This document shows positions 1,817 through 62,004 of a stretch of 64,000 bases of DNA, in pieces. The translations under genes and the position numbers were made by a program. Numbering within the stretch: the stretch's first letter is position 1; every line of letters begins with the position of its first letter. Source of the DNA: Sugiyamaella lignohabitans (lineage: Eukaryota > Ascomycota > Dipodascomycetes > Dipodascales > Trichomonascaceae); assembly GCF_001640025.1 (NCBI RefSeq), contig NC_031672.1, positions 2,914,001 to 2,978,000 on the forward strand, read 5' to 3'. Below the pieces are notes generated by a model. That model searched no databases and was not told where the DNA came from. It worked only from the letters and a program-made list of their open reading frames with translations.

Positions 1817-2801
1817 AAATCAGTGAAACCAAGAGAGAAACCCGGACAGAAACACAACAAACTCGACAAAAAAACAACAAATACCGTAAACAGAGATCTA
1901 GGTTTCAAACGCAGGTCCAAACAGAAAACTTCAGCAACGTGCAGAGCCGGAACAGGAAAGCACAAGGAGCTAGAGAATGAGCCTGAATCTGTTACCACAA
2001 ACGAGCAACCCGAACTCCCTGGCTGGCTGTTCTTCACTTGACAAAAGAATCAGGTCAAAAAAAACCACTCTAACGAGATACCAGAGTTGAAAATGGAATT
2101 GAAATTCCAATAACAAATTCAAGATCCGAGGTAGAATCAATTCAAGACAGCCAAGAAACCACTTGAGACACGCAGTTTAGCGACAGACAGCAACGCCAGC
2201 AAACCACCTGAATATGCACACACCAAAACCACGCGGCAACTGCGAGTACAGAATGTGATCTTGTAACTAACAACCACCGAATTCAACTGTTAACAACCTA
2301 ACAAACACACAGCCCCGATATCACAAGAAAAAAAGCACTTTCACAAACCGCTACGGTACTTTCCGCAAAACACAATCGCTCGATCGACCCTGATTCCAAC
2401 TGCACTTCGGACATCTCGCATATGCACCACCAAGGGTCCCGCCGCGCATCCGGCGGCTGAGTCTGCGCCCCATACAACGCGGCTCATCTCGCTCCGTTCG
2501 AGTCGTTCTAGAGAGGCCCCCCCTTTTTCACCCGGATCCCTAGCACTCTCGAGCGAAGCTCGAGCCACGGGGTCTGGGGCGGAGCCCCAGCCGCCGGAGG
2601 CAAGGTGGAAGACCGGGGACTGCGGCTCGGCAGGAGCAGGGCAGGGGTCGAGGGGGGTGTGTCAGAGTCATCGAGATCGCGACGATCTTTCGAGGGAGGG
2701 ATCAGAGATCAGCTCTGAACTTCGGACCTGGTTAGAAGATAGAATTGTCAGAGACATAGACTGGATAGAAAGATAGAGAAAGAATACAAACACGGAAAGA
2801 A
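1817..2801. other. Divergent intergenic region ZRG17-TRP4
   Basis: This is the shared upstream region of the leftward ZRG17-like gene and the rightward TRP4. It holds one degenerate GC-rich palindromic element (2446-2602). The rest is A-rich on the + strand near the ZRG17 start, and no RNA gene or convincing ORF was found. Confidence 0.6.
2446..2602. repeat. GC palindromic element, degenerate copy
   Basis: The right arm is intact (ends CCGCCGGAGGCA, stem CTGGGGCGGAGCCCCAG). The left arm is decayed: the stem has become GTCTGCGCCCC and only CCGGCGGCTG and the CTCGCTCCGTTCGAGTCG part are recognisable. It lies about 200 bp before the TRP4 start. Confidence 0.75.
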
Positions 2802-3887
2802 ATGACCGGGAAAGTGAATCTGACGCCACAGCTGAGAAAATTGCTGCAACGACCGCCGCAGTTGACGCCGGAGGATGTGGTAGCGGCTCTGGATGTGATG
2901 ATAGCGGGCGATGCTGATGATATCCAGGTGGCAGCGTTTTTGACGGCTTTGAGAATCACTGGGTTAGACCATTCGGCCGATTTTATTGCTTCGACAGCAA
3001 CGAGGATTTTCGAGGAGTCGCACAAACTGGATACTTCGACTTTGAACCCCGAGGGATATGTGGATATTGTAGGAACCGGTGGTGATGGTAAGAACACATT
3101 CAATGTTTCGACAACAGCAGCCATTGTAGCATCAGGAATCGGTCTGAATATCTGTAAACACGGCGGAAAAGCGTCGACATCAACGTCAGGTTCGGGTGAT
3201 TTATTGCGGTTCCTGGGTGTCAAAATGGAGAATGTGAACCATTTGACGGCACCAGGTATCCTCAATCAATCCAAATACTGTTTTCTATTCGCACCAGTAT
3301 TTCATCCAATGATGGCATCACTGGCTCCATTGCGAAAAACACTGGGAATTCCTACTATTTTCAACATCATGGGTCCATTGATCAACCCAGCTCCTCTGAA
3401 AGCCCGTATCATTGGCGTCTACTCCGAGCCTCTAGGTCGAGTATTTGCCGAAGCAGTTCTACAAATGAACATAGCAGCCGGCCGACCGAATTCTCCTGCT
3501 TTAATTGTCTGGGGAACCGAAGGGCTGGACGAGATTTCTATTGACGTTCGCACCAAGGTCTGGGAACTCAAGAACCAGAAAATCTCCGAATACTACGTCG
3601 AACCGGCCGATTTCGGCATCCAACGCCATACTCTCTGCGAAGTGGCTTCAGGAACCCCACAACAGAACTCCGAGGTCGTTCGCAAACTACTGGCCAACGA
3701 ACTGCCCGAAAACGACCCTGTCCTCGACTACGTTCTCATCAACACCGCGGCCCTCGCCGTCGTCGAAGGCACAGCCCGCGACTGGAAACATGGAGTCGAA
3801 CTCGCCCGGGAAAGTATCCGTTCAGGAGCCGCCAAAAACGCTCTCGCCAAGTTCGTAGCCCTCTCCGAGGCCGCTGCTACCCACTAA
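2802..3887 (+). CDS. TRP4: Anthranilate phosphoribosyltransferase
   Basis: This 361-residue protein has the usual length of the family. It transfers a phosphoribosyl group from PRPP to anthranilate, the second committed step of tryptophan synthesis, in the cytosol. The PRPP-binding glycine loop reads GTGGDGKNTFNVST at about residues 91-104. It is followed by KHGGKAS at about 123-129, and the conserved NIMGPLINP block is near residue 190. The first ATG after an upstream stop is used. An element of the GC palindrome family begins 34 bp after the stop codon. No introns are needed and the alignment to the family is continuous from end to end as judged by motif order. Confidence 0.95.
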   Translation: MTGKVNLTPQLRKLLQRPPQLTPEDVVAALDVMIAGDADDIQVAAFLTALRITGLDHSADFIASTATRIFEESHKLDTSTLNPEGYVDIVGTGGDGKNTFNVSTTAAIVASGIGLNICKHGGKASTSTSGSGDLLRFLGVKMENVNHLTAPGILNQSKYCFLFAPVFHPMMASLAPLRKTLGIPTIFNIMGPLINPAPLKARIIGVYSEPLGRVFAEAVLQMNIAAGRPNSPALIVWGTEGLDEISIDVRTKVWELKNQKISEYYVEPADFGIQRHTLCEVASGTPQQNSEVVRKLLANELPENDPVLDYVLINTAALAVVEGTARDWKHGVELARESIRSGAAKNALAKFVALSEAAATH

Positions 3888-3920
3888 TTTATGTATATTA
3901 TCACACTCTTGGGGGTGTTC

Positions 3921-4058
3921 TGCCTCCGGCGGCTGGGGCTCCGCCCCAGACCCCGTAGCTCCTGCTTCGCAGGAGATTGCTAGGGGCCCCCCACGCCCGA
4001 CTCGAGCGCAGCGAGAGGAGCAGCGAGGTCTGGGGCGGAGCCCCAGCTGCCGGAGGCA
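3921..4058. repeat. GC palindromic element, complete
   Basis: Starts TGCCTCCGGCGG and ends with a slightly altered CTGCCGGAGGCA. The left arm has the CTCCTGCTTCGCAGGAG hairpin and the right arm the CGACTCGAGCGCAGCGAG form. It starts 34 bp after the TRP4 stop. Confidence 0.9.
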
Positions 4059-7283: not shown

Positions 7284-7335
7284 ACGAGCGTAGCGAGCCA
7301 GGGGGTCTGGGGCAGAGCCCCAGCCGCCGGAGGCA
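7284..7335. repeat. GC palindromic element, solo right arm
   Basis: A single arm: AACGAGCGTAGCGAG hairpin, then CTGGGGCAGAGCCCCAG and CCGCCGGAGGCA. It lies 94 bp after the PCP1-like stop codon. The outer hairpin is the short variant also seen at 52331 and 50727. Confidence 0.85.
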
Positions 7336-10226: not shown

Positions 10227-10287
10227 TGCCTCCGGCGGCTGGGGCTCCGCCCCAGACCCCGCAGCTCCTCTCGCTGCGCTCGAGTCG
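10227..10287. repeat. GC palindromic element, solo left arm
   Basis: TGCCTCCGGCGG, CTGGGGCTCCGCCCCAG, ACCCCGCAGCTCC and CTCGCTGCGCTCGAGTCG in order. No partner arm within 300 bp. Confidence 0.9.
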
Positions 10288-10669
10288 GGCGTCGGGAGGG
10301 CCACTAGCGTGGAGGAGGGTGACAGGGGTCTGTGTTTTCGGTGCTCGGAGCCGTTGCAGGTCTCCAAGATCACGGACTGGTCTGCCAGCAGGGACGCCAG
10401 TTCCGCTTCATTTGGCCTGTAACGCAGCCAGAAAAACCTGGAACCGGATCGGTAGACCCAATTGAGTGTCCAGAGCACGGAATCACCAAAAAAAGATCAG
10501 AATTACCACACCCGGCAACACCACAACTCCCCCGTCACAACATACCGCCGCACACCCTGCGGCACACCACAAATCCCCCTTCCCCCCATCCAAAACCAGC
10601 CCAGGCAATCCACTAACCCCCCCAAAAGCCACACACACACCACTCCAGCACAGCCGGGAACCCCAAGCC

Positions 10670-10730
10670 CGACTCGAGCGCAGCGAGAGGAGCCGCGGGG
10701 TCTGGGGCGCAGCCCCAGCCGCCGGAGGCA
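10670..10730. repeat. GC palindromic element, solo right arm
   Basis: CGACTCGAGCGCAGCGAG, GGAGCCGCGGGGT, CTGGGGCGCAGCCCCAG and CCGCCGGAGGCA in order. It could be the far half of an element begun at 10227, but both arms are of the CTCGAG type. Confidence 0.88.
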
Positions 10731-10949: not shown

Positions 10950-13253
10950 ATGACGACCAACCGCTATTTCGACTCGGAACCGACTGCTCGCGGTGCCGGG
11001 TCGTCGTACACAGACCGGTTTCGCACCGACGATGCTCTTGAACCAGCTCTCGTTTTGGGCTCGTCAGGCACTTCGAGCCCGTCTTCGTCGTTCGCCCGTC
11101 CTACTCCGACAACCACGGCTCGGTTAATATCCATGATTGGTAGGTAATGTTCCGGGAAGGGGGGTTGTGCCTCCGGCGGCTGGGGCTCCGCCCCAGACCC
11201 CGTTGCTCCTGCTTCGCAGGAGTTTCAGGGGGGATGTGGTTGGTTTTGGAGGTCCAGATTTTGCTGGGGACGCTCGAGAAACCGACTCGAGCGAAGCGAG
11301 AGGAGCCACGGGCTCTGGGGCAGAGCCCCAGCCGCCGGAGGCAGTTCGACACCGGAGAAGTGAACCCTCTAACAGGACACAGACAGAGCATGCCGGCCGT
11401 CGCTTCATGAGCCTGACTTGGCATTGAATTTGGAGATTGCCGACCTGATTAATCAGAAGAAAGGAACCGCGCCAAGAGAAGCAGCGGTCGAAATTGTGAA
11501 GTTGGTTAACAGTCGCACGCCGCAGGTATCGATTCTAGCGATGGCGGTTTTGGACATTTGTGTCAAGAACTGTGGGTATCCGTTTCATTTACAGATTTCT
11601 CGTAAAGAGTTTTTGAACGAGTTGGTGAGACGGTTTCCTGAGAAACCGCCAGTGGCGTATTCCAAGACTCAATTGTTGATTCTCGAATCGATTGAAGAGT
11701 GGAGACAGACCATCTGCCGGACCAGCAGATATAAAGACGATTTGGGCTATATTCGTGATATGCATCGGTTACTCACATACAAAGGTTATATTTTCCCCGA
11801 GATCAATCGAGACGATGCGGCAGTTCTCAATCCTTCTGATAGTCTGCGGTCGGCTCAAGAACTCGAACAAGAGGAGAAAGAAGCGCAGTCTGCCAAGTTG
11901 CAAGAACTCATTCGACGAGGTACTCCTGCTGATTTACAGGAAGCTAACAGACTCATGTCGGTCATGGCCGGGTTCAGAGAGAATAAAACCGATTATAGAG
12001 CCAAGGCTGCGAAAGATCTTGATAAACTACGTCGAAAAGCTGAGATTCTAGAAGAAATGCTCGATCATCATCAGGCAGAAAATACTATTCCTGACGATGG
12101 CGACGATGTATTCTCGGATCTCATTAGTGCTTTAAAGACGGCTCGACCTAAGATCCAGAAAATGATTGATCAAGAAGGTGAAGAAGACGAAGAGGCCGTT
12201 ACTAAATTACTTGGTTTGAACGATTATATCCAGTCGTTGATTGAAAAGTACGATTTCTTGAAGAATGGCGATTTCACCAATGCTGGTCAAGTAGCGGTGA
12301 ATCCTATTCCTGGCACTGAAGAAGGCAGACGTAAACGTAATGTCAATAACAAGGCTGCTCTTATAGAGTCGTTAATTGATATTGATGGCGATGATAACGA
12401 TGCTGGAATCGGGTCTTCAAGCAGTACTGGTGCTACTGGTGGCACTTCACAACAACAAAATACTGGAAGTGCCAGTGAAGACTTGCTGGGTGCTTTTGAC
12501 AATCTGTCATTTGGCGGCAGTGGAGCTAATACTGCTACTGGATCTGGTGCTGGAAGTGGTGGATTTGGCAATGGGTTTGGCCAAGGTGGTAATATCTCAC
12601 TTGGCATTTCGACACCTTCTCCACCACCATCAACTATATCGGGATCGCAATTATCGATTCCCACGGCACCATCTCTTATTGGCGATTTTGGTACAAACAG
12701 CGTTTATAGTGGTATGTCGACACCAAGTTTGACGACCGGAACTGCCACTATTGCCTCGACTTTACTTACTGCATCGGCTGGAAATGCCACGCCCAAGACC
12801 CATTCACGAACCTCGTCCTTGTTGGACGATTCTGACTGGACGAATTTCGAGTCCGGTTCGTCGAGCCACGCTGCTGGCGCCTCGGCGTACCCCAAATCCG
12901 ATGTTGCCGTGCTCGATTCGACTGCTCTATCTATCCATTTCGACGTAGTCCGCCAATCTGGTACTGAAGTTTCTATTAAAGCTATATTCTCCAACAAATC
13001 AGCCACTCAGCCCATCTCGAACCTGAACTTCCAACTGGCAGCTCCCAAATCGCAACTCCTGCGAATGGAGCCCCAATCCGGCAGCAACCTGCCACCCTTG
13101 AGCCAAGCCGGAGTCGTCCAAAACGTTCGTCTCACCCTCTCACAACCCAGCGAGCCCGGCTCCGCCAAGCTCAAACTCAAGTGGAAAGTCTTTTTTGTCC
13201 TCGGCCCCGACAGCAAAGAGCTCTCCGGCACCATTGACAACATCAATGTCTAA
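10950..13253 (+). CDS. GGA2: GGA-type clathrin adaptor (VHS-GAT-GAE), two exons
   Basis: Exons 10950-11139 and 11383-13253 give 686 residues. The junction is inferred from donor G|GTAGGT and acceptor ACACAG|ACAG after a CTAAC branch site (11369-11373). It restores LISMIDRACRPSLHEPDLAL, matching the start of VHS domains; a donor at 11144 with an acceptor after 11386 is a near-equivalent alternative. The VHS domain follows (NLEIADLINQKKGTAPREAA, NCGYPFHLQISRKEFLNELV). A helical GAT region lies at about residues 215-320, a Gly/Ser/Thr-rich hinge next, and the GAE ear at about 575-686 (LSIHFDVVRQSGTEVSIKAI to the C-terminus). GGAs sort ubiquitinated and acidic-dileucine cargo at the trans-Golgi with clathrin and Arf. 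The 243-bp intron contains a complete GC palindromic element. An in-frame ATG at 10929 is an alternative start. Confidence 0.9.
11168..11343. repeat. GC palindromic element inside the GGA intron
   Basis: A complete copy with TGCCTCCGGCGG and CCGCCGGAGGCA ends, CTCCTGCTTCGCAGGAG in the left arm and CGACTCGAGCGAAGCGAG in the right. The spacer is longer than usual. It sits 28 bp after the donor and about 40 bp before the acceptor, leaving the splice signals untouched. Confidence 0.9.
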
Positions 13254-13304: not shown

Positions 13305-13556
13305 TGCCTCCGGCGGCTGGGGCTCCGCCCCAGACCCCGTAGCTCCTGCTTCGCAGGAGATCCGTGAAGCTTCTTCTGGGGGTTGTGCCCCAGACCCCGT
13401 GGCTCCTGCTTCGCAGGAGATGGCGGGGACCGTGAAGTGAGGGAGTGAACAGACGGTTCTTCACAGGGTACCGCGGACCGTTTCGTCGGCGAAACCGACT
13501 CGAGCGAAGCGAGAGGAGCCACGGGGTCTGGGGCAGAGCCCCAGCCGCCGGAGGCA
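13305..13556. repeat. GC palindromic element with duplicated inner left arm
   Basis: After a full left arm (ending CTCCTGCTTCGCAGGAG), a second partial left arm repeats CCCCAGACCCCGTGG and the same hairpin, followed by the usual spacer and a CTCGAG-type right arm. It lies between the convergent GGA (52 bp after its stop) and VID21 (128 bp after its stop). Confidence 0.9.
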
Positions 13557-17662: not shown

Positions 17663-17798
17663 TGCCTCCGGCGGCTGGGGCTGCGCCCCAGACCCCGTGG
17701 CTCCTCTCGCTACGCTCGAGTCGAACGTCCACGGTCCCAGCAACTCCTGCGAAGCAGGAGCAACGGGGTCTGGGGCGGAGCCCCAGCCGCCGGAGGCA
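17663..17798. repeat. GC palindromic element, complete, reverse orientation
   Basis: Left arm of the CTCGCTACGCTCGAGTCG type and right arm of the CTCCTGCGAAGCAGGAG type, so it reads as the reverse complement of the copy at 3921. It starts 50 bp before the VID21 ATG, one of few copies near a 5' end. Confidence 0.9.
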
Positions 17799-20914: not shown

Positions 20915-21052
20915 TGCCTCCGGCGGCTGGGGCTCCGCCCCAGACCCCGCTGCTCCTCTCGCTGCGCTCGAGTCGTTCCGTCCACGGTCCCAGCCATCTC
21001 CTGCGAAGCAGGAGCCACGGGGTCTGGGGCGGAGCCCCAGCCGCCGGAGGCA
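20915..21052. repeat. GC palindromic element, complete, reverse orientation
   Basis: CTCGAG-type left arm, CTCCTGCGAAGCAGGAG right arm. It fills the gap between two convergent genes: 34 bp after one stop and 24 bp after the other. Confidence 0.92.
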
Positions 21053-22854: not shown

Positions 22855-23862
22855 CTAGGCTACTTGGTACTTGGCAGCGACCTTGTCGAAGAGGTCGGAC
22901 TTTTCCTTGAGCGCCACGAGCGACGGGTGGTCGCGCTGGACCTGTTCCAGCTTGCTTTCGTAGTCGGTGTAGTCTTTTCCGTTGAGAATGGCCGAGGCAA
23001 TGGCATTAGCAAGCACCTCGGGGTTCTCAGGCTCTAACTGAAGAGCCTCGGAAATCAGCTCCTCGCCTTCTGGGTACCGGCCAAGCTCGATTTGTGCCAC
23101 ACCCTGTCCTAACAAAGACCGGGCCGACGCCACTCCACCGGTAGCAAGCTCTTCATAGATATAAAAAGCCGACTGGGCCTTTTCAGGACCTAATCGGAGA
23201 TTCGTCCATGCCTCGCTGACATTAAACACGACATTATCTTGAGCCCATTTGCGGGCCTCGTTGACCAATTTAGCGGCCGAATCAGGCCTGTTCTGGATCA
23301 AATGGATCTGAATGATCAAAGAAACACACTCCAAACTGCCCTGATGCTGTCCTAGCAATTGTAAAGCTTCAGGATACTTCTTTTCGGCCACCAGCACTAG
23401 TCCACCGATATATTGGACAGTGGCATTCTCGGAATTCGACTGGATCAGTTTCTCTACAGCAGCCAATCCCGTCTTAATACCGGCCTGGTACTCGGCATAT
23501 GCCTTGACCACTGCCAGATCTGGCTCAGTCGACCCATTTAATTGGCTGATGACATCTCTGCCCTTGCCTAACTGGATATTGGCCCGTGCAACCAACACTT
23601 GGGCCCGCAGCTTGGCAGGGTCCTTAAACCCGGAAATATCCAGCGAGATCACCTGCTGGTAATCGCCCGTATAAAACGCCCGCTCAATGGTAAACAATTC
23701 TACTCCGTTAGTTCTTTTTTTCTCTCTCTCTCTGTCTTCACTGGGTCTATTGACTGGGGTGGTGGGGGGATTGCCTCCGGCGGCTGGGGCTCCGCCCCAG
23801 ACCCCGCTGCTCCTCTCGCTTCGCTCGAGTCGGGCGTGGGGGTCCAGTGTTTGCGGTTTCAT
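22855..23862 (-). CDS. SEC28: Coatomer epsilon subunit, 5' end uncertain
   Basis: Epsilon-COP stabilises alpha-COP in the COPI coat for retrograde Golgi-to-ER traffic. Family similarity starts at ELFTIERAFYTGDYQQVISL (codons from about 23700) and runs to the stop as TPR-like helical repeats of about 280 residues, close to the usual length. The only in-frame ATG upstream is at 23862, which gives a 335-residue frame whose first ~55 residues are a translated GC-element arm (LERSERSSGVWGGAPAAGG). That is unlikely to be native. A branch-like ACTAAC and an acceptor GGAGTAG lie directly before the conserved start. The more likely structure is a short first exon further upstream and an intron holding the element, but I could not find a convincing in-frame donor. 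Confidence 0.8.
   Translation of the reverse strand: MKPQTLDPHARLERSERSSGVWGGAPAAGGNPPTTPVNRPSEDREREKKRTNGVELFTIERAFYTGDYQQVISLDISGFKDPAKLRAQVLVARANIQLGKGRDVISQLNGSTEPDLAVVKAYAEYQAGIKTGLAAVEKLIQSNSENATVQYIGGLVLVAEKKYPEALQLLGQHQGSLECVSLIIQIHLIQNRPDSAAKLVNEARKWAQDNVVFNVSEAWTNLRLGPEKAQSAFYIYEELATGGVASARSLLGQGVAQIELGRYPEGEELISEALQLEPENPEVLANAIASAILNGKDYTDYESKLEQVQRDHPSLVALKEKSDLFDKVAAKYQVA
23772..23832. repeat. GC palindromic element, solo left arm, near SEC28 5' end
   Basis: TGCCTCCGGCGG, CTGGGGCTCCGCCCCAG and CTCGCTTCGCTCGAGTCG. It lies within the likely 5' intron or 5' extension of SEC28. Confidence 0.92.
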
Positions 23863-24853
23863 TTCAGGGTTCACAAGATATAAAGAGACATCTGAACCAA
23901 TATCCTGATTCGCGAACAACAACCAATCTCACGTCGTGAATAGACTACGACAGTGTCCCTTCTCTAATAGCATGTCGACTCGTCTCAGCTGCTTCCCAAG
24001 GTCACTTCGTAACTTCAGAACCAACAAACAAAAGTCTAGCAAAATGAACTGTCCAATACAAAAACCAAAAAACTGCCTCAAAACAGTTGTTCTTTGACCC
24101 AACTCAACCAATAGTCACGAAGTCGCTGCCTGATCACTACCACTCAATTCATCCCAATATTTCTTCGAATCCGCCAGGTACCAGCAAAAGTCCAGCAAAA
24201 AAAATCCCCATACAATAAAAACCAAAAAAATAAAAAGCTAGAAAAAACTGCTGTCCTTGAGCCAACCCTCTCACCAGCCACGAAGTCACTGCCTGATCTC
24301 TTGACCACCCAATTCATCCCACTACCCCGTCGTAGTCCGCCAGAAATCAATAAAAGTCCAGAAAACAAACCCCCCAATACAAAAACCAGAAAAAACTGCT
24401 TCAAAACCGCTGTTCTTAACTCAACTCTCCCGCCAGTCGCGAAATCACGGTCTGATCTCAACCACCCAATTCACCCCAGTCTCTCTTCGCAATCTTCAAA
24501 ACAAACCCGAGTCAAAACTCAGAAAACCATCTGCTACATACCTCCAGAGTCCGAGAATGGATCCATTTTATATTTTCTATGAACTTAAATGTGAGCACTG
24601 GTGTATTTACGAATCCTCTCGTGCCAGTGTCGGTCAGTCGGTCTGCCAGTTGACGCCAACTCACTCGTTCACCGCGCGCTTCACACATACACTCCGTTTA
24701 CCGCATATTTCACCCATATCCTTCTAACTCGCCAACCCCCGTCACCGGTCGGGGTATGCCTCCGGCGGCTACCGGAGCGCGGGTGAATCTGCGATCTGAA
24801 ATTGTGAAAATAATCAACTCCACCCAGTTCACCGTTGCAACAACAAACACAGG
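23863..24853. other. Divergent intergenic region SEC28-ARC1
   Basis: Contains a degenerate ~160-bp tandem repeat (23990-24490), and a 14-bp scrap of a GC element end (TGCCTCCGGCGGCT, 24757-24770) 84 bp before the ARC1 ATG. A missing first exon of SEC28 may also lie here. Confidence 0.6.
23990..24490. repeat. Degenerate tandem repeat, ~160-bp unit, about 3 copies
   Basis: Three diverged copies align at about 24086, 24250 and 24410. Each has the order: an A-rich run ending AAAACTG, CTGTTCTT or CTGTCCTT, a CACGAAGTC.CTGCCTGATC block and CCACCCAATTCATCCCA (with substitutions), then a GTCCAG.AAA stretch. The spacing is 160-164 bp. A weaker partial copy seems to begin before 24086. Copies differ by many substitutions and small indels, so the array is old. 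Confidence 0.75.
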
Positions 24854-26276
24854 ATGTCATCCGTCGAATCTCTGACCAAAGCCTTTGAACAGTCGCTGTC
24901 GCTGAAAGACAAGCCCGAGGTATGACTGCACCCACTTCCACGCTCATGGGGTGGCCTCACTGCCTCCGGCGGCTGGGGCTCCGCCCCAGACCCTGGTTGC
25001 TCCTCTCGCTACGCTCGAGTCGGGCGTCGACTGTGACGAGAAAAAGGAAAACTCCTGCGAAGCAGGAGCAACCAGGGTCTGGGGCGGAGCCCCAGCCGCC
25101 GGAGGCACATCCACCCCCACCTCCAGAACTAACCGTGACCAGGCCAATGCCGCTCTTGTGAAGCTGGCACCCGCTGATTTGACCGAGATTCAGTCTGCTG
25201 AGCTTAATCAGTGGTTGACTGTTTCGGGCAGATTTCCTGAGGGAATTGAACAGTTGAACGAGACTTTGAAGACTAGAACTTATATTTTGGAGACTCATGA
25301 GGCCACAGTGGCAGATGCGGTTGTTTTGTCGCGAATCGCCGGCACCGTTAAGTCGTGGTCGAATGATGAGGTCAAGCTGAATAGACACATTGTCCGTTGG
25401 TTGGATCTGGTTCAGAATGTCATTGGTATCAAGGATGAAGATAAGGTCACTGTCAACAAGGATCTTGAAGCTCCTCGTGAAATCAAGGTCAAACCCAAGA
25501 AGGACGACAAGGCCGGTGACAAGGCTGGTGACAAGGCTTCTAAGAAGGATAAGAAGGCCAAGAAGGGCGCTGAAGGTGCTGTTCCTGCTGCTGAAGGTGC
25601 TGCTGCTGCTGCCTCTGCCGCTGGTGCTACCACTGCTGGTGCCGTTGCTAGTGCTGAAGGTGAAGCCAAGGGCGATGCTGCTGGCGCTGGCGACGATAAG
25701 AAGAAGCAGGGTGTGAAGAAGGAGAAGAAGAAGAAGCCCCAGCCCGTCAAGGAAGAGCTTGTGATTTCTCCTGGACTCATTGACCTTCGTGTCGGATACA
25801 TTGAGAAGGCTATTAAGCACCCCGACGCTGATTCTCTCTACGTTTCGACCATTCAAATGGGCGATGCCGACGGTCCTCGTACCGTGTGCAGTGGTCTTGT
25901 CAAGTATTTCCCCTTGGAAGCCATGCAAGGAAGATATGTGGTAGTTGTGGCCAATCTCAAGCCTGTTAACATGAGAGGAATCAAGTCGTCGGCCATGGTT
26001 TTGTGTGCATCCAACGACGATACCGTCGAGTTTGTCAACCCACCCGAGGGATCCAAACCCGGCGACAAAATCTTCTTCGAGACCTATGACTTGACTCCCG
26101 AACCCGTTCTTAACCCTAAAAAGAAGATCTGGGAGACCGTTCAGCCGGGTTTCTCCACCAATGCCGCACTGGAAGTGACCTACCGCAAGGACGAGTCCGA
26201 GCCCGAACGCAAGCTCGTCAACAAAGCCGGCCTCCTTTGCAAAGTCAACAGCCTCGTGTCTGCTGTTGTTAGATAA
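24854..26276 (+). CDS. ARC1: tRNA-binding aminoacylation cofactor Arc1-like, two exons
   Basis: Exons 24854-24919 (22 codons, MSSVESLTKAFEQSLSLKDK...) and 25143-26276 give 399 residues. The splice is GAG|GTATGA to ACTAACCGTGACCAG|GCC in phase 0. The N-terminal ~120 residues resemble the GST-like domain that binds MetRS and GluRS. A Lys/Ala-rich tRNA-tethering linker follows. From about residue 228 lies an EMAPII-like OB-fold tRNA-binding domain (IDLRVGYIEKAIKHPDADSL, NLKPVNMRGIKSSAMVLCAS). Arc1 delivers tRNA to the two synthetases and keeps them cytosolic. The intron holds a whole GC element; reading through the intron gives a false N-terminus made of translated repeat. Human p43-type proteins share the OB domain. 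Confidence 0.9.
24961..25107. repeat. GC palindromic element inside the ARC1 intron
   Basis: A complete copy in reverse orientation (CTCGAG-type left arm, CTCCTGCGAAGCAGGAG right arm). Its two stems match as CCCTGGTTGCTCC and GGAGCAACCAGGG. The intron is 24920-25142, so the element starts 41 bp after the donor and ends 35 bp before the acceptor. Confidence 0.93.
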
Positions 26277-26318: not shown

Positions 26319-26614
26319 TGCCTCCGGCGGCTGGGGCTCCGCCCCAGACCCCGTAGCTCCTGCTTCGCAGGAGATCTCTGTCACCGTCGACGGAACCGAC
26401 TCGAGTGGAGCGAGAGGAGCCGCTGGGTCTGGGCGCAGCCCATGGCGCCGGAGGCACAATCCGACCCGGGACCACTGCCTCCGGCGGCTGGGGCTCCGCC
26501 CCAGACCCCGTAGCTCCTGCTTCGCAGGAGATCTTTGTCACCGTCGACGGAACCGACTCGAGCGGAGCGAGAGGAGCCGCGGGGTCTGGGGCGCAGCCCC
26601 AGCTGCCGGAGGCA
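26319..26614. repeat. Two GC palindromic elements in direct tandem
   Basis: Copies 26319-26456 and 26476-26614 share left arm, spacer (GAGATCT.TGTCACCGTCGAC) and CTCGAG-type right arm and are nearly identical. The first has a damaged right stem (CTGGGCGCAGCCCATGGCG). This is a recent tandem duplication of about 157 bp including flanking DNA. The array starts 43 bp after the ARC1 stop. Confidence 0.93.
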
Positions 26615-27042: not shown

Positions 27043-27191
27043 GGGGCCTGAGGCGCAGCCCCAGCCGCCGGAGGCCCCCCGGCTCCTCTCGCTCCGCTCG
27101 AGTCGTCTCCATCTCCAGACTCCGGTCGTAGCAATCTCCTGCGAAGCAGGAGCAACCCGGGTCTGGGGCGGAGCCCCAGCCGCCGGAGGCA
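27043..27191. repeat. Rearranged GC palindromic element
   Basis: The outer end of the left arm is inverted: it reads GGCGCAGCCCCAGCCGCCGG before GGCTCCTCTCGCTCCGCTCG, while the right arm is normal (CTCCTGCGAAGCAGGAG to CCGCCGGAGGCA). This suggests breakage and re-joining within the palindrome. Confidence 0.8.
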
Positions 27192-27359: not shown

Positions 27360-27510
27360 TGCCTTCGGCGGGTGGGGCGGAGCCCCAGACCCGGGGTTGC
27401 TCCTCTCGCTGCGCTCGAGTCGGCTGTCTTGGTCCCAGGCCCTGCGTCCCGAGTCTCCTGCGAAGCAGGAGCAACCAGGGTCTGGGGCGGAGCCCCAGCC
27501 GCCGGAGGCA
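27360..27510. repeat. GC palindromic element with flipped left stem-loop
   Basis: Reverse-orientation copy. The left stem reads GTGGGGCGGAGCCCCAG, that is, its loop is GGA-side up instead of CTGGGGCTCCGCCCCAG. Such a change can come from inversion of the short hairpin. The right arm is standard. Confidence 0.85.
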
Positions 27511-30362: not shown

Positions 30363-30659
30363 TGCCTCCGGCGGCTGGGGCTCCGCCCCAGACCCTGGTT
30401 GCTCCTCTCGCTTCGCTCGAGTCGTTTCCGCGGCTGTCCCAGCAAACCCCCAATGGTTATATGCCATCAGTCGACTCCAGTAGCACTGGGACGTCGCAAA
30501 AACGACTCGAGCGAAGCGAGAGGCGCCACGGGGTCTGGGGCAGAGCCCCAGCCGCCGGAGGCAGTCCGAGTAGAGAAGTTACTGGGATCGTCGCGGAACC
30601 GACTTGAGCGCAGCGAGAGGAGCCACGGGGTCTGGGGCAGAGCCCAGCCGCCGGAAGCA
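30363..30659. repeat. GC palindromic element with extra right arm
   Basis: Left arm 30363-30423 (CTCGAG type), right arm 30504-30563 (CTCGAG type) and a second, slightly damaged right arm 30600-30659. It lies between the convergent GH3 (43 bp after its stop) and GH115 (41 bp after its stop). Confidence 0.9.
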
Positions 30660-34567: not shown

Positions 34568-34700
34568 TGCCTCCGGCGGCTGGGGCTCCGCCCCAGGTAG
34601 CTCCTGCTTCGCAGGAGATTTCCCGGCATTGTCGAAGCCCGACTCGAGCGCAGCGAGAGGAGCCGGGGGGTCTGGGGCGCAGCCCCAGCCGCCGGAGGCA
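34568..34700. repeat. GC palindromic element, left arm shortened
   Basis: The left arm lacks the ACCCCG segment (CTGGGGCTCCGCCCCAGGTAGCTCC), the right arm is complete and CTCGAG type. It ends 47 bp after the stop of the SGNH esterase gene. Confidence 0.9.
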
Positions 34701-36942: not shown

Positions 36943-37081
36943 TGCCTCCGGCGGCTGGGGCTCCGCCCCAGACCCTGGTTGCTCCTGCTTCGCAGGAGAT
37001 GGCCGAGACCGTCGCGAAACCGACTCGAGCGAAGCGAGAGGAGCCACGGGGTCTGGGGCAGAGCCCCAGCCGCCGGAGGCA
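36943..37081. repeat. GC palindromic element, complete, canonical
   Basis: One of the cleanest copies: TGCCTCCGGCGG, CTGGGGCTCCGCCCCAG, CTCCTGCTTCGCAGGAG, spacer AGATGGCCGAGACCGTCGCG, CGACTCGAGCGAAGCGAG, CTGGGGCAGAGCCCCAG, CCGCCGGAGGCA. It starts 34 bp after the reductase stop. Confidence 0.95.
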
Positions 37082-38048: not shown

Positions 38049-38184
38049 TGCCTATGGCGGCTGGGGCTCTGTCCCAGACCCCTTTGCTTCTCTCGCTGGG
38101 CTCGAGTGCGTGTCGACGGTCCCAACAACTTCCTGCAAAGCAGGAGCACCGGGGTCTAGGGCGCAGCCCCAACCGCCGGAGGCA
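38049..38184. repeat. GC palindromic element, diverged copy
   Basis: Same layout as the reverse-orientation copies, but with scattered substitutions: TGCCTATGGCGG, CTGGGGCTCTGTCCCAG, CTCGCTGGGCTCGAG, TTCCTGCAAAGCAGGAG. The stems no longer pair fully, so this is probably an older insertion. It lies 69 bp after the sugar transporter stop. Confidence 0.9.
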
Positions 38185-42569: not shown

Positions 42570-42707
42570 TGCCTCCGGCAGCTGGGGCTACGCCCCAGAC
42601 CCCATGGCTCCTGCTTCGCAGGAGATGGCGGGGACCGTATACGAACCGACTCGAGCGCAGCGAGAGGAGCAGCGGGGTCTGGGGCGGAGCCCCAGCCGCC
42701 GGAGGCA
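42570..42707. repeat. GC palindromic element, complete
   Basis: Left arm TGCCTCCGGCAG with stem CTGGGGCTACGCCCCAG and the CTCCTGCTTCGCAGGAG hairpin; spacer AGATGGCGGGGACCGT; CTCGAG-type right arm to CCGCCGGAGGCA. It is far from any gene. Confidence 0.93.
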
Positions 42708-44239: not shown

Positions 44240-44301
44240 CGACTCGAGCGAAGCGAGAGGAGCTACCAGGGTCTGGGGCGGAGCCCCAGCCGCCGGAGGC
44301 A
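44240..44301. repeat. GC palindromic element, solo right arm
   Basis: CGACTCGAGCGAAGCGAG, GGAGCTACCAGGGT, CTGGGGCGGAGCCCCAG and CCGCCGGAGGCA, in otherwise AT-rich DNA. The abrupt GC shift marks it as an insertion. Confidence 0.92.
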
Positions 44302-45935: not shown

Positions 45936-46137
45936 TGCCTCCGGCGGCTGGGGCTCCTCTCGCTTCGCTCGAGTCGAGCGTGGGGGAGTCCAGTTGGTGG
46001 TCGTGGGGGGTCGGATTTACACGGGTCCCTGAAAAAAAGTATTGCCAAGACAACCCCAGCATGCCCCCTGTACCTGGGACCCCCACGCCCGACTCGAGCG
46101 AAGCGAGAGGAGCCACGGGGTCTGGGGCGGAGCCCCT
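45936..46137. repeat. GC palindromic element with deletions in both arms
   Basis: The left arm jumps from TGCCTCCGGCGGCTGGGGCT directly to CCTCTCGCTTCGCTCGAG, so it lacks the second stem strand and ACCCCGTGG. The right arm stops at CTGGGGCGGAGCCCC and lacks AGCCGCCGGAGGCA. Both arms are CTCGAG type. Confidence 0.85.
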
Positions 46138-48891: not shown

Positions 48892-49092
48892 TGCCTCCGG
48901 CGGCTGGGGCTCCGCCCCAGACCCCGCTGCTCCTCTCGCTTCGCTCGAGTCGGTGCGTCGGGCGGTGGACTGAGTTTCCCGCCAGGGGGATATGAACCAC
49001 GAATCCAGATCTGTTGACCGCCCGGCGCAACGACTCGAGCGAAAGCGAGAGGAGCAGCGGGGTCTGGGGCGGAGCCCCAGCCGCCGGAGGCA
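48892..49092. repeat. GC palindromic element, both arms CTCGAG type, long spacer
   Basis: Left stem CCCCGCTGCTCC and right stem GGAGCAGCGGGG match exactly. The spacer is about 75 bp. It lies between the convergent ERT1-like gene (42 bp after its stop) and MLC1 (74 bp after its stop). Confidence 0.9.
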
Positions 49093-50036: not shown

Positions 50037-50175
50037 TGCCTCCGGCGGCTGGGGCTCCGCCCCAGACCCTGGTTGCTCCTGCTTCGCAGGAGACGGCTGG
50101 GACCAAGGGGGAAACGACTCGAGCGGAGCGAGAGGAGCAGTGGGGTCTGGGGCGGAGTCCCAGCCGCCGGAGGCA
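50037..50175. repeat. GC palindromic element, complete
   Basis: Left arm with CTCCTGCTTCGCAGGAG, spacer AGACGGCTGGGACCAAGG, CTCGAG-type right arm. It lies in the divergent MLC1-ARP1 promoter region, 156 bp upstream of the MLC1 ATG. Confidence 0.93.
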
Positions 50176-50443: not shown

Positions 50444-51879
50444 ATGGAGTTCGACGAAGTTTTGTTGAACCAGCCCGTGGTTTTTGACAATGTAGGTACC
50501 AGATCCAGGAGACGAGGTGGTTTTAGAGGAGAGAATTTCCAGTTCAAGTGCCGAGATCGGTTTCTAACACATATCAGGGCTCAGGGACGATAAAAGCAGG
50601 CATTGCTGGCGAGGAGCAGCCAAAGACGTTTTTCCCTTCTTTGTAAGTAAATCTACCGATTCGGAGTCTATGCCCGTGAATTATAGATCCTTGGCCAGTT
50701 CCCCAAACAGTCCTGTCCCGATAATGGCTCGCGAAGCGAGCACAACGGGGTCTGGGGCAGCGCCCCAGCCGCCGGAGGCAGACCCTCCCACCCCAGAAAC
50801 TAACAGCCAGTGTTGGACGACCCAAGCATACGAGAATCATGGCCGGAGCTCTTGAAGGAGATGAGTTTATTGGCAGTTCATGCCAGAATTATCGTGGGTT
50901 GTTGAAGATTCATTATCCGCTGGAACACGGAGTCGTCACCGACTGGGACGATATGGAGAGGATATGGCAGTATGTGTACACAGACGAGCTGAAGATTTTA
51001 AGTGAAGAGCATCCGATTCTGCTGACCGAGGCGCCATTGAACCCGCGGTCTAATCGAGATCAAGCTGCACAGGTTTTTTTCGAGACTTTTAATGTTCCAG
51101 CACTGTATTTATCGATCCAGGCAGTACTGGCTCTGTATGCGTCTGGCAAAACTACCGGGTTAGTTCTTGATTCGGGCGATGGAGTAACTCATTCCGTGCC
51201 TGTATATGGTGGATTCTCGATTCCAACTGCCATTCAACGAATCGATATTGCCGGAAGAGATGTCACTGAGTACCTACAACTGCTACTACGCAAGTCCGGG
51301 TCGGTATTATACACCTCGGCAGAAAAGGAGATTGTGCGAAATATCAAGGAGAATCACTGCTATATTGCATTAGATCCTCGTCGAGAAGAGAAAGAATGGT
51401 CTGCTCTGGATAGTCATGTTTTAAGTGCAGGATCTGGATTAGGAGCTACAGGATCTGTTCCTGGCGAAATATATCGATTGCCCGATGGCAAAGAAATTAA
51501 ACTCGGAGCCGAACGTTTTCGAGCTGCTGAGCTGTTATTCTCACCACATATTATTGGGTCGGAGTATAACGGTGTGCACCAGATCATCACCGACTCTATC
51601 AACCGAACCGACCTAGATCTGCGAAGCGGGCTGTACGAAAGCATTGTCCTCAGCGGCGGCTCGACCCTGACAAAAGGGTTTGGCAACCGTCTGCTTGCCG
51701 AGCTCAAACACATGGCATCCAAAAACACCAAAATCAAAATCTATGCCCCGCCCGAACGCAAATACAGCACCTGGATCGGCGGGTCCATCCTGGCCAGTCT
51801 CAGCACCTTCAAGAAAATGTGGGTCACGGCCGACGAGTGGCAGGAAAACCCCGACATCATCCACACAAAGTGTATGTAG
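50444..51879 (+). CDS. ARP1: Actin-related protein 1 (centractin), three exons
   Basis: Exons 50444-50491, 50578-50642 and 50811-51879 give 393 residues. Splicing joins [28 protein letters not shown] and [20 protein letters not shown] into an uninterrupted actin N-terminus. Nucleotide-binding motifs include [22 protein letters not shown] and [16 protein letters not shown]. Arp1 signatures such as [10 protein letters not shown] and [19 protein letters not shown] place it with centractin rather than conventional actin. Arp1 forms the short filament of dynactin, which links dynein to cargo and cortex for spindle and nuclear positioning. The second intron (168 bp) holds a solo GC arm, the first (86 bp) does not. 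Confidence 0.93.
50727..50780. repeat. GC palindromic element, solo arm in ARP1 intron 2
   Basis: GCTCGCGAAGCGAGC, then ACGGGGTCTGGGGCAGCGCC and CCGCCGGAGGCA. It lies 84 bp after the donor and 30 bp before the acceptor, whose ACTAAC branch site follows it. Confidence 0.9.
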
Positions 51880-51934: not shown

Positions 51935-51995
51935 TGCCTCCGGCGGCTGGGGCTCTGCCCCAGACCCCGTGGCTCCTCTCGCTTCGCTCGAGTCG
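51935..51995. repeat. GC palindromic element, solo left arm
   Basis: TGCCTCCGGCGG, CTGGGGCTCTGCCCCAG, ACCCCGTGGCTCC and CTCGCTTCGCTCGAGTCG. It starts 56 bp after the ARP1 stop. Confidence 0.92.
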
Positions 51996-52987
51996 TTGCG
52001 TCGGGGGTCCCGTAGTTAGACTGAACTGAACTGAACTGAATTGAATTGAACTTGTTCGGCTGTTGCTGGTCAATACCAGGTACAAGCATTAACAATTGAT
52101 CCAAGGGACCAATTGCAGTTCCCTGAGACTCATTCAATGTCTCCGGTTGTGTTTCCGTAATTTTGGCTCGATAAATAACAATAACATTCGGCGGAAATGT
52201 CGAAATCATGGGTAGTTGATTTCCCCTTTGACCAGCGTTAGGTCCAGCTTTTTCAGGGTCAATGCTCCCAACTGCAGCCCGCAGTCAGCAATTTTCAAGC
52301 CCAACCACCCCCTGGGGGCACCCCCCGCGTAACGAGCGTAGCGAGCTACGGGGTCTGGGGCAGAGCCCCAGCCGCCGGAGGCAGAGAGGCCCATCCCCGG
52401 TCCTCCCAACGGGCATGCATCCCCCGGTGCAGTCCCCAGTGCAGCCCGCCCGTTATCTTGCATATAGGGGGGCTGTTCGGCTGTGATGCGATGAGATTAC
52501 CCCTGGCATTTCCATACCGAGTAAAGTACGACTCCGATCGAACTTTATCTGTTCGAAGCTAGATACAAATGGGGTATTTGGCTCGAAATCGTTAGAATTC
52601 GATCGATATTAGACTCCGGCAAATGCTTAAATGCTCATACAGAGCATTGGCTAGTGGCCATAGGGTGTTTGAGATGTGCTTGGGTGCTCCAGCGGGTACT
52701 GTAGCGGGTGCTTGCAGGGGGCTGCAGGCTGCAAGCTTGTCGGGCCCGTGATCCAAGATTATGTGGTCAAAGCAGACAGCAGACATCAACATAATCTTTA
52801 GAGCCCCGTGTATATATATGAAGGTAAATCCGCAGCAATGGTCTTTTTTCTTCTCTTCTTCTTTTTTCTCGTCAGAATAAACCTACAGCTGTCTTTACAC
52901 TCAAGTTTTGTTCTGTGATTTTTTAACCAGCGCTTTCAACACTATTTTCTACTACTCTCTTACTACTCACCTGTTTTAATTGATAAA
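51996..52987. other. Upstream region of the PIP kinase-like gene
   Basis: About 990 bp. It has a short tandem GAACT/GAATT run (52021-52050), a solo GC arm (52331-52383), a TGTATATATATGAAGG box at 52809-52824 and a T-rich leader. No gene is supported. Confidence 0.55.
52331..52383. repeat. GC palindromic element, solo right arm, short hairpin variant
   Basis: AACGAGCGTAGCGAG, CTACGGGGTCTGGGGCAGAG and CCGCCGGAGGCA. It uses the same short outer hairpin as the arm at 7284. Confidence 0.88.
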
Positions 52988-55716: not shown

Positions 55717-55852
55717 TGCCTCCGGCGGCTGGGGCTCCGCCCCAGACCCTGGTTGTGCTCCGCTTCGCGGAGCATTCAGGGGACCTAGAGCCGACTCGAG
55801 CGAAGTGAGAGGAGCAGCGGGGTCTGGGGCGGAGCCCCAGCTACCGGAGGCA
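55717..55852. repeat. GC palindromic element with variant inner hairpin
   Basis: The left inner hairpin is TGCTCCGCTTCGCGGAGCA in place of CTCCTGCTTCGCAGGAG: stem bases changed on both sides so that pairing is kept. The right arm is CTCGAG type with CTACCGGAGGCA at the end. It lies 34 bp after the stop of the leftward gene. Confidence 0.9.
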
Positions 55853-57944: not shown

Positions 57945-58121
57945 TGCCTCCAGCAGCGGGGGCGCTGCCCCAGACTCCGTTGTACTCGATTCGCGACCTA
58001 CCGGGGGGGTCCCATTCCCTACCAACCTCACCACCAAACATCACGGGCCACCCCGACGCCCGACTCGAGCGTAGCGAGAGGAGCCGCGGGGTCTGGGGCG
58101 CAGCCCCAGCCGCCGGAGGCA
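57945..58121. repeat. GC palindromic element, left arm diverged
   Basis: The left arm reads TGCCTCCAGCAG with GGGGGCGCTGCCCCAG and lacks the CTCCTG hairpin; the right arm (CGACTCGAGCGTAGCGAG to CCGCCGGAGGCA) is intact. It ends 54 bp before tRNA-Pro. Confidence 0.88.
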
Positions 58122-58285: not shown

Positions 58286-58316
58286 GCCTTCTTTTTGTTT
58301 TTGCCGAGTCCTTGAA

Positions 58317-58456
58317 GCCTCCGGCGGCTGGGGCTCTGCCCCAGACCCCGTGGCTCCTCTCGCTTCGCTCGAGTCGTTCCAGGGGGGGTCCCCTCGCCAA
58401 CTCCTGCGAAGCAGGAGCAACCAGGGTTTGGGGCGGAGCTCCCGCCCCCGGAGGCA
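58317..58456. repeat. GC palindromic element, reverse orientation
   Basis: Left arm CTCGAG type, right arm CTCCTGCGAAGCAGGAG then GTTTGGGGCGGAGCTCCCGC and CCCCCGGAGGCA with some substitutions. It begins 31 bp after tRNA-Pro and lacks the outermost T of the usual end. Confidence 0.9.
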
Positions 58457-58725: not shown

Positions 58726-58878
58726 TGCCTCCGGCGGCTGGGGCTCCGCCCCAGACTCTAGTTGCTCCTCTCGCTACGCTCGAGTCGTTGCGTGGGGCAG
58801 TACTGGAAATGGCTGGAGAGTTCTCCTGGGAAGCAGGAGCAACCAGGATCTGGGGCGGAACTCCTGCCGCCAGAGGCA
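58726..58878. repeat. GC palindromic element, reverse orientation, decayed right arm
   Basis: Left arm intact with GACTCTAGTTGCTCC. Right arm CTCCTGGGAAGCAGGAG, GGAGCAACCAGGATCTGGGG, CGGAACTCCTGCCGCCAGAG: the stem is broken. Confidence 0.88.
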
Positions 58879-59103: not shown

Positions 59104-59244
59104 TGCCTCCGGCGGCTGGGGCGTTGCCCCAGACCCCGTGGCTCCTCTCGCTTCGCTCGAGTCGGTTTTCCGACGAAAGTCGTAGCAATCTCCTGCGAAG
59201 CAGGAGCTACGGGGTCTGGGGCAGAGCCCCAGCCGCCGGAGGCA
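59104..59244. repeat. GC palindromic element, complete, reverse orientation
   Basis: CTCGAG-type left arm with CTGGGGCGTTGCCCCAG, right arm CTCCTGCGAAGCAGGAG to CCGCCGGAGGCA. It lies in open intergenic DNA. Confidence 0.92.
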
Positions 59245-60242: not shown

Positions 60243-61304
60243 ATGGAAGAAGAATACGGTTTTACCAATGAAAGCGCCCCTGGCCAATCGTCGCAACCAA
60301 TTGCGTCTACCTCGTCTGTTGAAGAATTCCACAAGAAACCTGTGATCAACCCTGATGCAGCTATTACTGTGGAACCTATTCGGAAACAGGATTTGCAGCC
60401 CTCTTATGCTACTGAGATGGCGGTACCGTCCAATGGCTGGTACGGTTCTCTCATGAATGGATTGGGTAATGTTGTTGGTACATTAGGAGCTATTCCATGT
60501 TGTATTTGTTGTCCCAACCCATTCAAGTCGGTCTCACAAGGAGAAGTTGGTCTGGTTACCAGATTTGGCCAGTTCTACAAGTCGGTAGACCCTGGTTTGG
60601 TGCGTATCAATCCTCTTTCTGAGAAGATTCACTATGTTGAGGTCCGTATCCAGGTCCTGGACATTCCCCATCAGGTTTGTATGACTCGTGATAACGTGAA
60701 TATCCGCTTGTCTTCTGTGTTGTACTACCACATTATCTCGCCTCACAAGGCCAAATTTGGTGTTACCAGTGTTATACAAGCTCTTATGGAGCGTACCCAA
60801 ACGACCTTACGACATGTTGTAGGAGCCCGATCTTTGCAAGAGATCATTGAACGTCGTGAGGAAGTTGCCGCTTCAATTCAAGAGATCATTGACGACACGG
60901 CCTCCTCCTGGGGTGTCAAGGTTGAGAGCATTCTCATCAAGGACATTCTCCTCAGCGAAGAGTTGCAAGACTCGCTTTCCCAGGCCGCCAAGAGCAAGAG
61001 AGCCGGTGAATCGAAGATCATTACTGCCCGTGCCGAGGTCGAGAGCGCCAAACTCATGCGTAGAGCCGCCGATATCCTGGCTTCTAAGGCTGCCATGCAA
61101 ATCCGGTACCTCGAAGCCATGCAGCAAATGGCCCGCACCTCGAACTCCAAGGTCATTTTCATGCCATCCCAAGACACCATCGAGCGTATCAGCGACAACG
61201 TAAACTCAGAGGGTTTCCAGTCCGCACGGGAAGCTGCCGTTGACAACACCCCCGGGCCCAGTCGCATCGCCGAGAACCTAGCCTACAACGAGATCGAGAA
61301 CTAA
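60243..61304 (+). CDS. Stomatin-like SPFH domain protein
   Basis: This 353-residue protein has a cysteine cluster CCICCPNPF at about residues 86-94 within a short hydrophobic stretch, a likely palmitoylated membrane hairpin. The SPFH domain follows (VSQGEVGLVTRFGQFYKSVD, PGLVRINPLSEKIHYVEVRI, VLYYHIISPHKAKFGV) and then a helical oligomerisation region (KSKRAGESKIITARAEVESA, ADILASKAAMQIRYLEAMQQ). Stomatins scaffold membrane microdomains and regulate channels or transporters. Fungal members of this type (StoA/StoB) act at the plasma membrane or in polarity; exact role unknown. It differs from prohibitins and mitochondrial Slp2-like proteins by the Cys cluster and the lack of a clear mitochondrial presequence. 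Confidence 0.88.
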   Translation: MEEEYGFTNESAPGQSSQPIASTSSVEEFHKKPVINPDAAITVEPIRKQDLQPSYATEMAVPSNGWYGSLMNGLGNVVGTLGAIPCCICCPNPFKSVSQGEVGLVTRFGQFYKSVDPGLVRINPLSEKIHYVEVRIQVLDIPHQVCMTRDNVNIRLSSVLYYHIISPHKAKFGVTSVIQALMERTQTTLRHVVGARSLQEIIERREEVAASIQEIIDDTASSWGVKVESILIKDILLSEELQDSLSQAAKSKRAGESKIITARAEVESAKLMRRAADILASKAAMQIRYLEAMQQMARTSNSKVIFMPSQDTIERISDNVNSEGFQSAREAAVDNTPGPSRIAENLAYNEIEN

Positions 61305-62004
61305 TCTCCACTCGAGCCGCCTCTTTCTTTCTTCTAATATGTCACGATTCTGTTTCTGCTTCCACTGTAACTCCCTCTTAATATCTTAATACTGATGTTT
61401 ATTTACTGACTACACACTCCCACGCACCGACTCGAGCGAAGCGAGAGGAGCAATGGGGTCTGGGGCGCAGCCCCAGCCGCCGGAGGCACACCCCTGGGGC
61501 CTCGCTGCCTCCGGCGGCTGGGGCTGCGCCCCAGACCCCATTGCTCCTCTCGCTTCGCTCGAGTCGGAGCGTCGAGGACCGGGGTGATGCAAGATTAGGT
61601 TGCATGCACGGGCGTTGGTATGCAAGATAGAGGGGGAGCAGAAAGCATTCAGCCAGCAACTGTTTAGTGTCGGCAGCGGCTGCTGGCTCGTGGACCATAA
61701 ATGAATGAGTGGTGTTGAGTGTGCAATTTTATTGATGGGGTCTCGAATGAAGAATTTCGAGAGGTCATTCTTTAGTGGCAGTTTGAAGCAGCGTATCTCG
61801 AGTGTGAGTTTGTAGTATAGTAATGGCAGGGTCTATGGGCTGTTTGAAACTGTGGGCGTCTTTATACTGCAGTCGTCAAAATATGAGACACCATAGTTGG
61901 TGTTGGCGTTATGGATATGCAGTTATGGTCGGCAGTGGGAATGCTTGTACTTGGGGAGTTGTTCCTCTGTTCGTCTCGCGCTGGAATTTTGCATTTTTTT
62001 TAAA
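61305..62004. other. Intergenic region stomatin-like to cyclin-like gene
   Basis: About 700 bp containing the outward-facing GC palindrome (61428-61566). The rest is ordinary sequence; an open frame just upstream of the cyclin ATG starts with a TTG codon and is not used. Confidence 0.5.
61428..61566. repeat. GC palindrome in inside-out arrangement, perfect arms
   Basis: Here the CTCGAG ends are outside and the CCGCCGGAGGCA / TGCCTCCGGCGG ends face each other across a ~17-bp loop. The two arms of about 60 bp appear perfectly complementary, including the GGAGCAATGGGGT and ACCCCATTGCTCC stems. It lies 124 bp after the stomatin-like stop. Confidence 0.93.

Follow-up and report, generated by a model that had tools for sequence, protein, structure and literature searches.

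The hairpin repeats of the window

The stretch of DNA analysed here (the window, 64,000 bases, C1:2914001-2978000) belongs to the yeast Sugiyamaella lignohabitans, whose genome comprises 15,932,016 bases in 4 contigs, contig C1 being 5,930,846 bases long (5.93 Mb). It contains many copies of a GC-rich, hairpin-forming repeat unit, the arm, and most arms are arranged in pairs that face inwards. The commonest pair is an asymmetric A/B dimer of ~138 bp, which occurs either way round and on each of the four contigs. The arm is a double hairpin consisting of TGCCTCCGGCGG, the hairpin CTGGGGCNNNGCCCCAG, and ACCC with a short connector, which separates the arm 33-mer (TGCCTCCGGCGGCTGGGGCTCCGCCCCAGACCC) from a second hairpin, either A (CTCCTGC-TTC-GCAGGAG) or B (CTCTCGCTNCGCTCGAGTCG, an imperfect hairpin). 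Inspection of the arm profile gives TGCCTCCGG as the arm start, and about 11 G-rich positions lie outside the TGCC end (166 arms).

Genome-wide, the 33-mer is present in 1460 forward and 1509 reverse exact copies (2969; reversed control, 0), its first 13 bases in 2918 and 2889 (5807; control, 0), and hairpin A in 936 and 903 (1839; control, 0). As 141 of 170 sampled arms contain the exact 13-mer, the total is estimated from the genome count of exact 13-mers at ~7000 arms. The density of arms is patchy: forward 13-mer cores are clustered at about 192-262 kb of C1, and the 10-kb stretches at 50, 150, 350 and 450 kb contain no arms and are mostly of lower GC. Within the window, 27 + and 29 - arms (56) were found at up to 8 mismatches to the 33-mer and none in 10 first-order Markov simulations, so that chance palindromes are ruled out, in agreement with a preliminary description of this DNA; its count of about 34 loci and over 50 arms was also borne out, with 57 arms in 33 groups at up to 9 mismatches and correct coordinates.

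Beyond the window, the sample on which the following counts are based included 20 stretches of 10 kb from 0-2 Mb of C1 and small loci retrieved by searches. A weight-matrix scan of it yielded 173 arms, with 64 neighbouring arms in the order + - (133-789 bp), 57 in the order - + (up to 7.6 kb), 16 - - and 12 + +. In all 48 short + - pairs (133-180 bp) exactly one arm passes the motif test for B, confirming the two unlike inner hairpins and the asymmetric unit of the preliminary description, and the pairs are oriented 24 each way, the copy at 2445 having probably been assigned the wrong way round. With stricter typing, a plain A is joined to a plain B in 40 of the 48; the A stem is a variant in 3, and in the other 5 an arm is decayed or left untyped. 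Both the 12-bp outer ends and the 33-bp arms of the pairs are inverted, and thus constitute terminal inverted repeats. When one 147-bp copy was compared with the genome, full-length relatives were found on all four contigs among the best 40 of 2426 candidates scored, with 88-92% identity in the same reading versus 76-83% in the reverse reading; none of these 40 was closer to the query, which indicates that there was no fresh burst for that copy.

The unit length of ~140 bp initially proposed applies to these 48 pairs and not to the other 16 of the 64, which span 186-789 bp and mostly have two arms of one type (9 B..B and 3 A..A, besides 2 that join A with B and 2 with a variant or decayed arm). 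Only arm sequence recurs among the interiors of the 12 longest of them compared within the sample, and the interior at 10300-10670 is single copy genome-wide, so that DNA inside the long pairs is ruled out as a repeat of its own to that extent. On inspection, remnants of the dimer spacer are kept behind the B hairpin in several long pairs. Unpaired arms also occur (e.g. 7303, 23772, 44269, 50748). Arms placed back to back (<- ->), 16-20 bp apart, are seen at 61456-61538 of the window and at 1807-1892 of the sampled locus L019, and two further such cases (window 26424/26476; L021 6824/6873) are neighbouring dimers.

The copies in the window are listed below by window position and orientation (a full stop, none assigned).

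2445..2602 (.): dimer with a decayed, B-like left arm and the variant hairpin CTCGAGCTTCGCTCGAG in its right arm
3921..4058 (+): A/B dimer, 33 bp past the stop of the open reading frame (ORF) 2802-3887
7303..7335 (-): unpaired arm
10227..10730 (.): B..B pair around about 400 bp of single-copy DNA
11168..11343 (+): A/B dimer, long spacer
13305..13556 (+): A..B pair, additional A arm inside
17663..17798 (-): A/B dimer
20915..21052 (-): A/B dimer flanked by convergent ORFs that stop 33 and 23 bp away
23772..23804 (+): unpaired B arm
24961..25107 (-): A/B dimer, long spacer; the 147-bp query of the genome comparison
26319..26456 (+): A/B dimer, near-duplicate of the next
26476..26614 (+): A/B dimer, near-duplicate of the preceding one
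27044..27191 (-): degenerate dimer, left arm rearranged
27360..27510 (-): A/B dimer
30363..30563 (.): B..B pair, spacer remnants at both inner ends (inspection); another - arm near 30628
34568..34700 (+): A/B dimer
36943..37081 (+): A/B dimer, 33 bp past a stop
38049..38184 (-): A/B dimer, partly decayed; a tRNA-Glu(TTC) lies at 37914-37987 (-), its 5' end about 62 bp from this dimer
42570..42707 (+): A/B dimer
44269..44301 (-): unpaired B arm
45936..46136 (.): truncated B..B pair, right arm shortened
48892..49092 (.): B..B pair
50037..50175 (+): A/B dimer
50748..50780 (-): unpaired arm, variant hairpin GCTCGCTTCGCGAGC
51935..52383 (.): B + arm and variant - arm enclosing DNA that does not recur within the sample
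55717..55852 (+): dimer, variant A hairpin GCTCCGCTTCGCGGAGC
57945..58121 (+): dimer, left arm decayed, type uncertain
58316..58456 (-): A/B dimer
58726..58878 (-): A/B dimer
59104..59244 (-): A/B dimer
61456..61538 (.): back-to-back B arms (<- ->) separated by 17 bp

As to other features of the window, a GH3 beta-xylosidase-like protein is encoded at 27915-30320, with named proteins of Scheffersomyces and other fungi as its best matches, and a 1309-aa ORF at 13684-17613 (-) has long runs of TTG/CTG in the + strand, which are glutamine codons when read on the coding strand. Three repeats of ~60 nt and three of ~48 nt (families D18 and D20), spaced by ~160 bp and unlike the hairpin arms, are found at 24014-24460.

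Conservation along the unit and possible modes of spread

Conservation was counted in 35 of the 48 dimers, namely those with a clear A hairpin and up to 149 bp long. Arm sites outside the loop differ from the consensus at 1.4% (left) and 2.6% (right), and the loops at 10% and 19%, respectively. The spacer has its modal length of 22 nt in 14 of 32 cases, and in those 14 the mismatch is 25% per site; the common spacer of the preliminary description is shared only weakly. Across all 48 dimers the mean identity is 0.40 for the spacer (gaps counted) and 0.90 for the remainder. This contrast is not made by the search filter, because 81 of 170 arms match exactly and just a few exceed 5 mismatches. 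Since decay after insertion would strike all parts alike, either only intact copies seed new ones or the structure is selected or corrected.

These values bear on the possibility that the repeat is an ordinary miniature inverted-repeat transposable element (MITE), the ends of which would be recognized by a DDE cut-and-paste transposase encoded elsewhere, with the dimer as a deletion derivative and target duplications too short or too decayed to be seen. MITEs and the yeast repeat have in common that they are non-coding, with inverted ends and high copy number, and a ~138-bp unit in thousands of copies and both orientations, the adjacent near-duplicates at 26319 and 26476, a longer spacer common to some copies (by inspection), and a spacer similarity that weakly tracks arm similarity (rho 0.18) are all as such an element would have them. 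However, a MITE would be expected to diverge evenly, and uniform decay after insertion cannot leave a copy with 1-3% change in its arms and 25% in its spacer (the arms being sequence-selected); like-armed long pairs are equally unexpected. Furthermore, the target-site duplications for which the preliminary description had called were not found in any of the 64 pairs, in which the longest direct flank match averages 4.42 nt against 4.40 +- 0.12 in shuffled flanks, and inverted flank matches (4.92 versus 4.81 +- 0.15) are not clearly higher either.

With respect to an enzyme, four transposase families were sought genome-wide. DDE_3 gave no match and neither did the hAT dimer, for which the control too matched nowhere, but two reading frames match DDE_1 (PF03184), and a dimer lies 55 bp behind the stop of one of them. 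This would suit a MITE, except that the dimer is placed there as it is behind other genes, and that only a short stretch upstream of the start of that frame is in view. On this evidence a MITE appears unlikely. What stands of the non-autonomous mobile family originally described is a dispersed, asymmetric, non-coding unit of ~138 bp with inverted ends; what does not stand is a standard transposon, in view of the missing target-site duplications, the uneven drift and the longer pairs.

The second hairpin provides further information. A perfect hairpin with a loop of 3 is found at this position in 70 of about 165 arms, 52 with the plain A stem and 18 with others, among which paired changes of the stem are seen (GCTCGC/GCGAGC 4, GCTCCGC/GCGGAGC 3, CTCGAGC/GCTCGAG 2, CTCCAGC/GCTGGAG 1, GGTCCGC/GCGGACC 1). 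Moreover, the connectors are identical on both sides in 8 of the 41 dimers in which both could be read, with 4.3 expected (P 0.028). Paired stem changes and identical connectors would both follow if the arms were quasi-palindromes that template switching had perfected during replication and gene conversion had spread, with no transposition machinery involved, in which case the stem changes would be mutational rather than selected. But the agreement of left and right connectors is a weak signal obtained with a rough pattern match, no association emerged from the length split in the connector analysis, and conversion between dispersed 33-bp tracts would be needed over thousands of sites, so that we regard this proposal as very unlikely.

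Position relative to genes and folding

An earlier ORF set included spurious ORFs over the elements, and filters based on codon bias proved too strict, hence the adoption of a length criterion for genes. With ORFs of at least 200 aa, 78 of 122 units lie between two ORFs. Of their edges, 22 are no more than 70 bp away from a stop codon; 1000 within-region permutations of these 78 units gave an expectation of 10.4 +- 1.8 and never reached the observed number (0/1000), whereas edges near start codons number 6 versus 5.1 expected. Four unit edges are exactly 33 bp from a stop. From this nearness to stop codons, transcription of the units in 3' untranslated regions (UTRs) is likely.

The predicted RNA fold of dimer strands (five strands of four elements, one element being folded in both strands) is one long rod with energies of -102.9 to -129.3 kcal/mol and z values of -10.9 to -15.4. 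A known RNA family is rejected as an identification: at the gathering score the window gives only a tRNA, and the miRNA-stem and Clostridiales-2 matches obtained on the loci L004, L042 and L052 are weak and far below the curated cut-offs.

Each arm might accordingly be conceived as a host 3'-end module, i.e. a selected terminator or mRNA-stability element, with facing pairs that reflect convergent transcripts and the A/B dimer as a compact form serving both directions. The enrichment within 70 bp of stops and its absence at starts speak for this, as do the stems changed on both sides together and the finding that non-dimer arms turn their TGCC end to the gene in 12 of 12 cases within 100 bp, 18 of 21 within 200 bp and 29 of 42 at any distance (a result that is partly trivial, as it follows from pairing). 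Clusters of short inverted repeats near poly(A) sites are described for S. cerevisiae (PMC6420913). On the other side, only 39 of 62 intergenic regions contain a unit, four 10-kb stretches (L012, L013, L015 and L016) have no arm, and a dimer with its spacer in both orientations requires the copying of a unit. We regard a host module as quite unlikely.

Likeness to a bacterial repeat

A collection of species genomes (84,980 species by its description) was scanned with the 33-mer, the loop being left free, and one matching stretch was obtained, in Solidesulfovibrio aerotolerans (locus L009, 330-362, - strand), 2 nt behind a stop codon. The genome of this bacterium contains 198 copies of GCCTCCGGCGGCNGGGG (control, 0). 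In 30 loci fetched, 35 of 36 distinct copies of the core have a perfect hairpin directly behind it, 34 of 36 have a (G)ACCC or ATCC motif after the hairpin, and a sense stop is no more than 60 nt away in 28 of 36, against 8 of 36 in the antisense control. These ~200 repeats of GCCTCCGGCGGC, hairpin and GACCC (loci L009 and L033-L062) often have a purine-rich leader (..GAGAAGGCAGAAGA) and form facing pairs; the two of these loci that were scanned, L042 and L052, match no curated RNA family at its cut-off.

Within the family Desulfovibrionaceae, TGCCTCCGGCGGCNNNGGG is matched in 30 of 59 genomes, at least 5 times in 15 of these, with no match of the reversed control in any. In the phylum, 10 of 297 genomes match, six by a single, possibly chance match, and the control matches once each in two other genomes. 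On phage-like contigs, 32 stretches carry the core and NNNGGG; about 9 show hairpin and ACCC by eye, three of them near-identical, a perfect hairpin immediately after the core was detected by script in 5, and the remaining stretches look like coding or chance matches. The 29-mer arm with a free loop found no stretch on these contigs. In plasmids, the yeast dimer gave one weak 37-nt match and the bacterial copy none. One phage-like contig (L080, 5438-5505, - strand) contains a Bacillus-plasmid RNA of Rfam above the curated cut-off.

Like the yeast arm, the Desulfovibrionaceae repeat has the GCCTCCGGCGGC core of 12 nt (13 with a leading T in some copies), a hairpin directly behind it, then (G)ACCC or ATCC, a sense position after stop codons and facing pairs. 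It differs in that the hairpin sequence is highly variable, whereas it is nearly fixed in yeast, and in that neither the A and B hairpins nor the dimer spacer were seen in the bacterial copies read. A match of 12 or 13 bases by itself could be due to chance, given the many repeat families in many genomes; because it is here joined to a hairpin, ACCC and a place behind stop codons, we judge chance to be an unlikely source of the likeness. It may reflect descent or convergence on a 3'-end function, and we know of no intermediate linking the two repeats. It may be imagined that the yeast arm and the Desulfovibrionaceae repeat, together with that of some phage-like contigs, are one selfish RNA/DNA hairpin module that crossed from bacteria to the yeast nucleus, reached about 7000 copies and kept its post-stop habit, but we hold this to be doubtful. 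A literature search found no account of either repeat; Bellasio et al. (2016), who reported the genome of Sugiyamaella, may describe the yeast one.

Relation to known systems and proposed mechanism

By analogy, the element would work most like the dimer of bacterial repetitive extragenic palindromes (REPs) and bacterial interspersed mosaic elements (BIMEs) (PMC3733652) or a mitochondrial double-hairpin element (PMC2800124). REPs and BIMEs (GTAG and CGTC families) are described in the former as short extragenic palindromes in high copy, with close opposite pairs, the opposite-facing units lying mostly downstream of coding regions; in yeast, too, an extragenic palindrome of 20-40 bp in high copy, opposite pairing and a position downstream of coding regions are found. 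The yeast repeat differs in its eukaryotic nuclear location, the two hairpins per arm, the two unlike arms per dimer and the lack of a Y1 match. As for the mitochondrial GC clusters and double-hairpin elements of yeast, Allomyces and sponges, PMC2800124 describes them as hairpin-forming and partly double hairpins, like the arms, those of Allomyces being without flanking duplications and those of a sponge having conserved stems and variable loops. Unlike them, the yeast repeat lies on chromosomal contigs, in thousands of copies and as inverted dimers. Since it lacks a REP tag and transposase, and is carried by nuclear chromosomes, it is a member of neither group.

By taking these findings together, we incline, with some reserve, to the interpretation that the repeat is a dispersed non-coding hairpin element, mobile or once mobile, that works in the yeast nucleus like a bacterial REP/BIME dimer. 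Copies, which are observed throughout intergenic DNA, would have spread there and would be retained above all just behind stop codons, as seen for ORFs of at least 200 aa. Transcripts would include the units, in either orientation, as part of the 3' UTR, and the transcribed dimer is predicted by computed folding to form a very stable rod, which may serve to protect or terminate them. Intact copies acting again and again as the source of new ones, selection on structure, or both would maintain the stems and the TGCC end, while the loops and the spacer, as their observed divergence suggests, would drift. The longer like-armed pairs probably arose from two facing units, or from independent arms at convergent transcript ends.

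Several points weigh against this interpretation. No target-site duplication, empty site or movement was seen in the one genome considered, Y1_Tnp (PF01797, RAYT-type) has no match genome-wide, although the search matched in 5 of 14 control genomes, and the arms carry no GTAG or CGTC tag of classical REPs. An isolated B arm (74 nt) folds barely better than chance (z -1.88, with 8 of 200 shuffles doing as well). Many units lie in divergent or tandem regions, distant from any called stop, so that a 3'-end role cannot account for all of them. The permutations covered part of the units, genes were called by ORF length alone, and the share of arms inside ORFs depends on the limit chosen (21/170 at >=150 aa, 7/170 at >=200 aa and 4/170 at >=250 aa). 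As to conservation, the search used the 33 bp of the arm itself and is thereby biased towards intact arms, the spacer being unfiltered, and 13 of the 48 dimers, with no clear A hairpin or longer than 149 bp, were dropped from the count. Finally, six loci of the sample (L001-L006) were picked because of an exact arm.

REP-like hairpin repeats are known in bacteria, and GC clusters in mitochondria. A budding-yeast nucleus with an estimated 7000 or so near-invariant hairpin arms, paired and crowded behind stop codons, would provide a tractable eukaryotic case, which would allow one to ask how such an element spreads without target duplications and what effect a very stable rod in the 3' UTR has on the mRNA. 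If the bacterial likeness is due to descent, it would represent the cross-domain transfer of a tiny non-coding element; convergence would instead indicate a constraint that 3' ends have in common.

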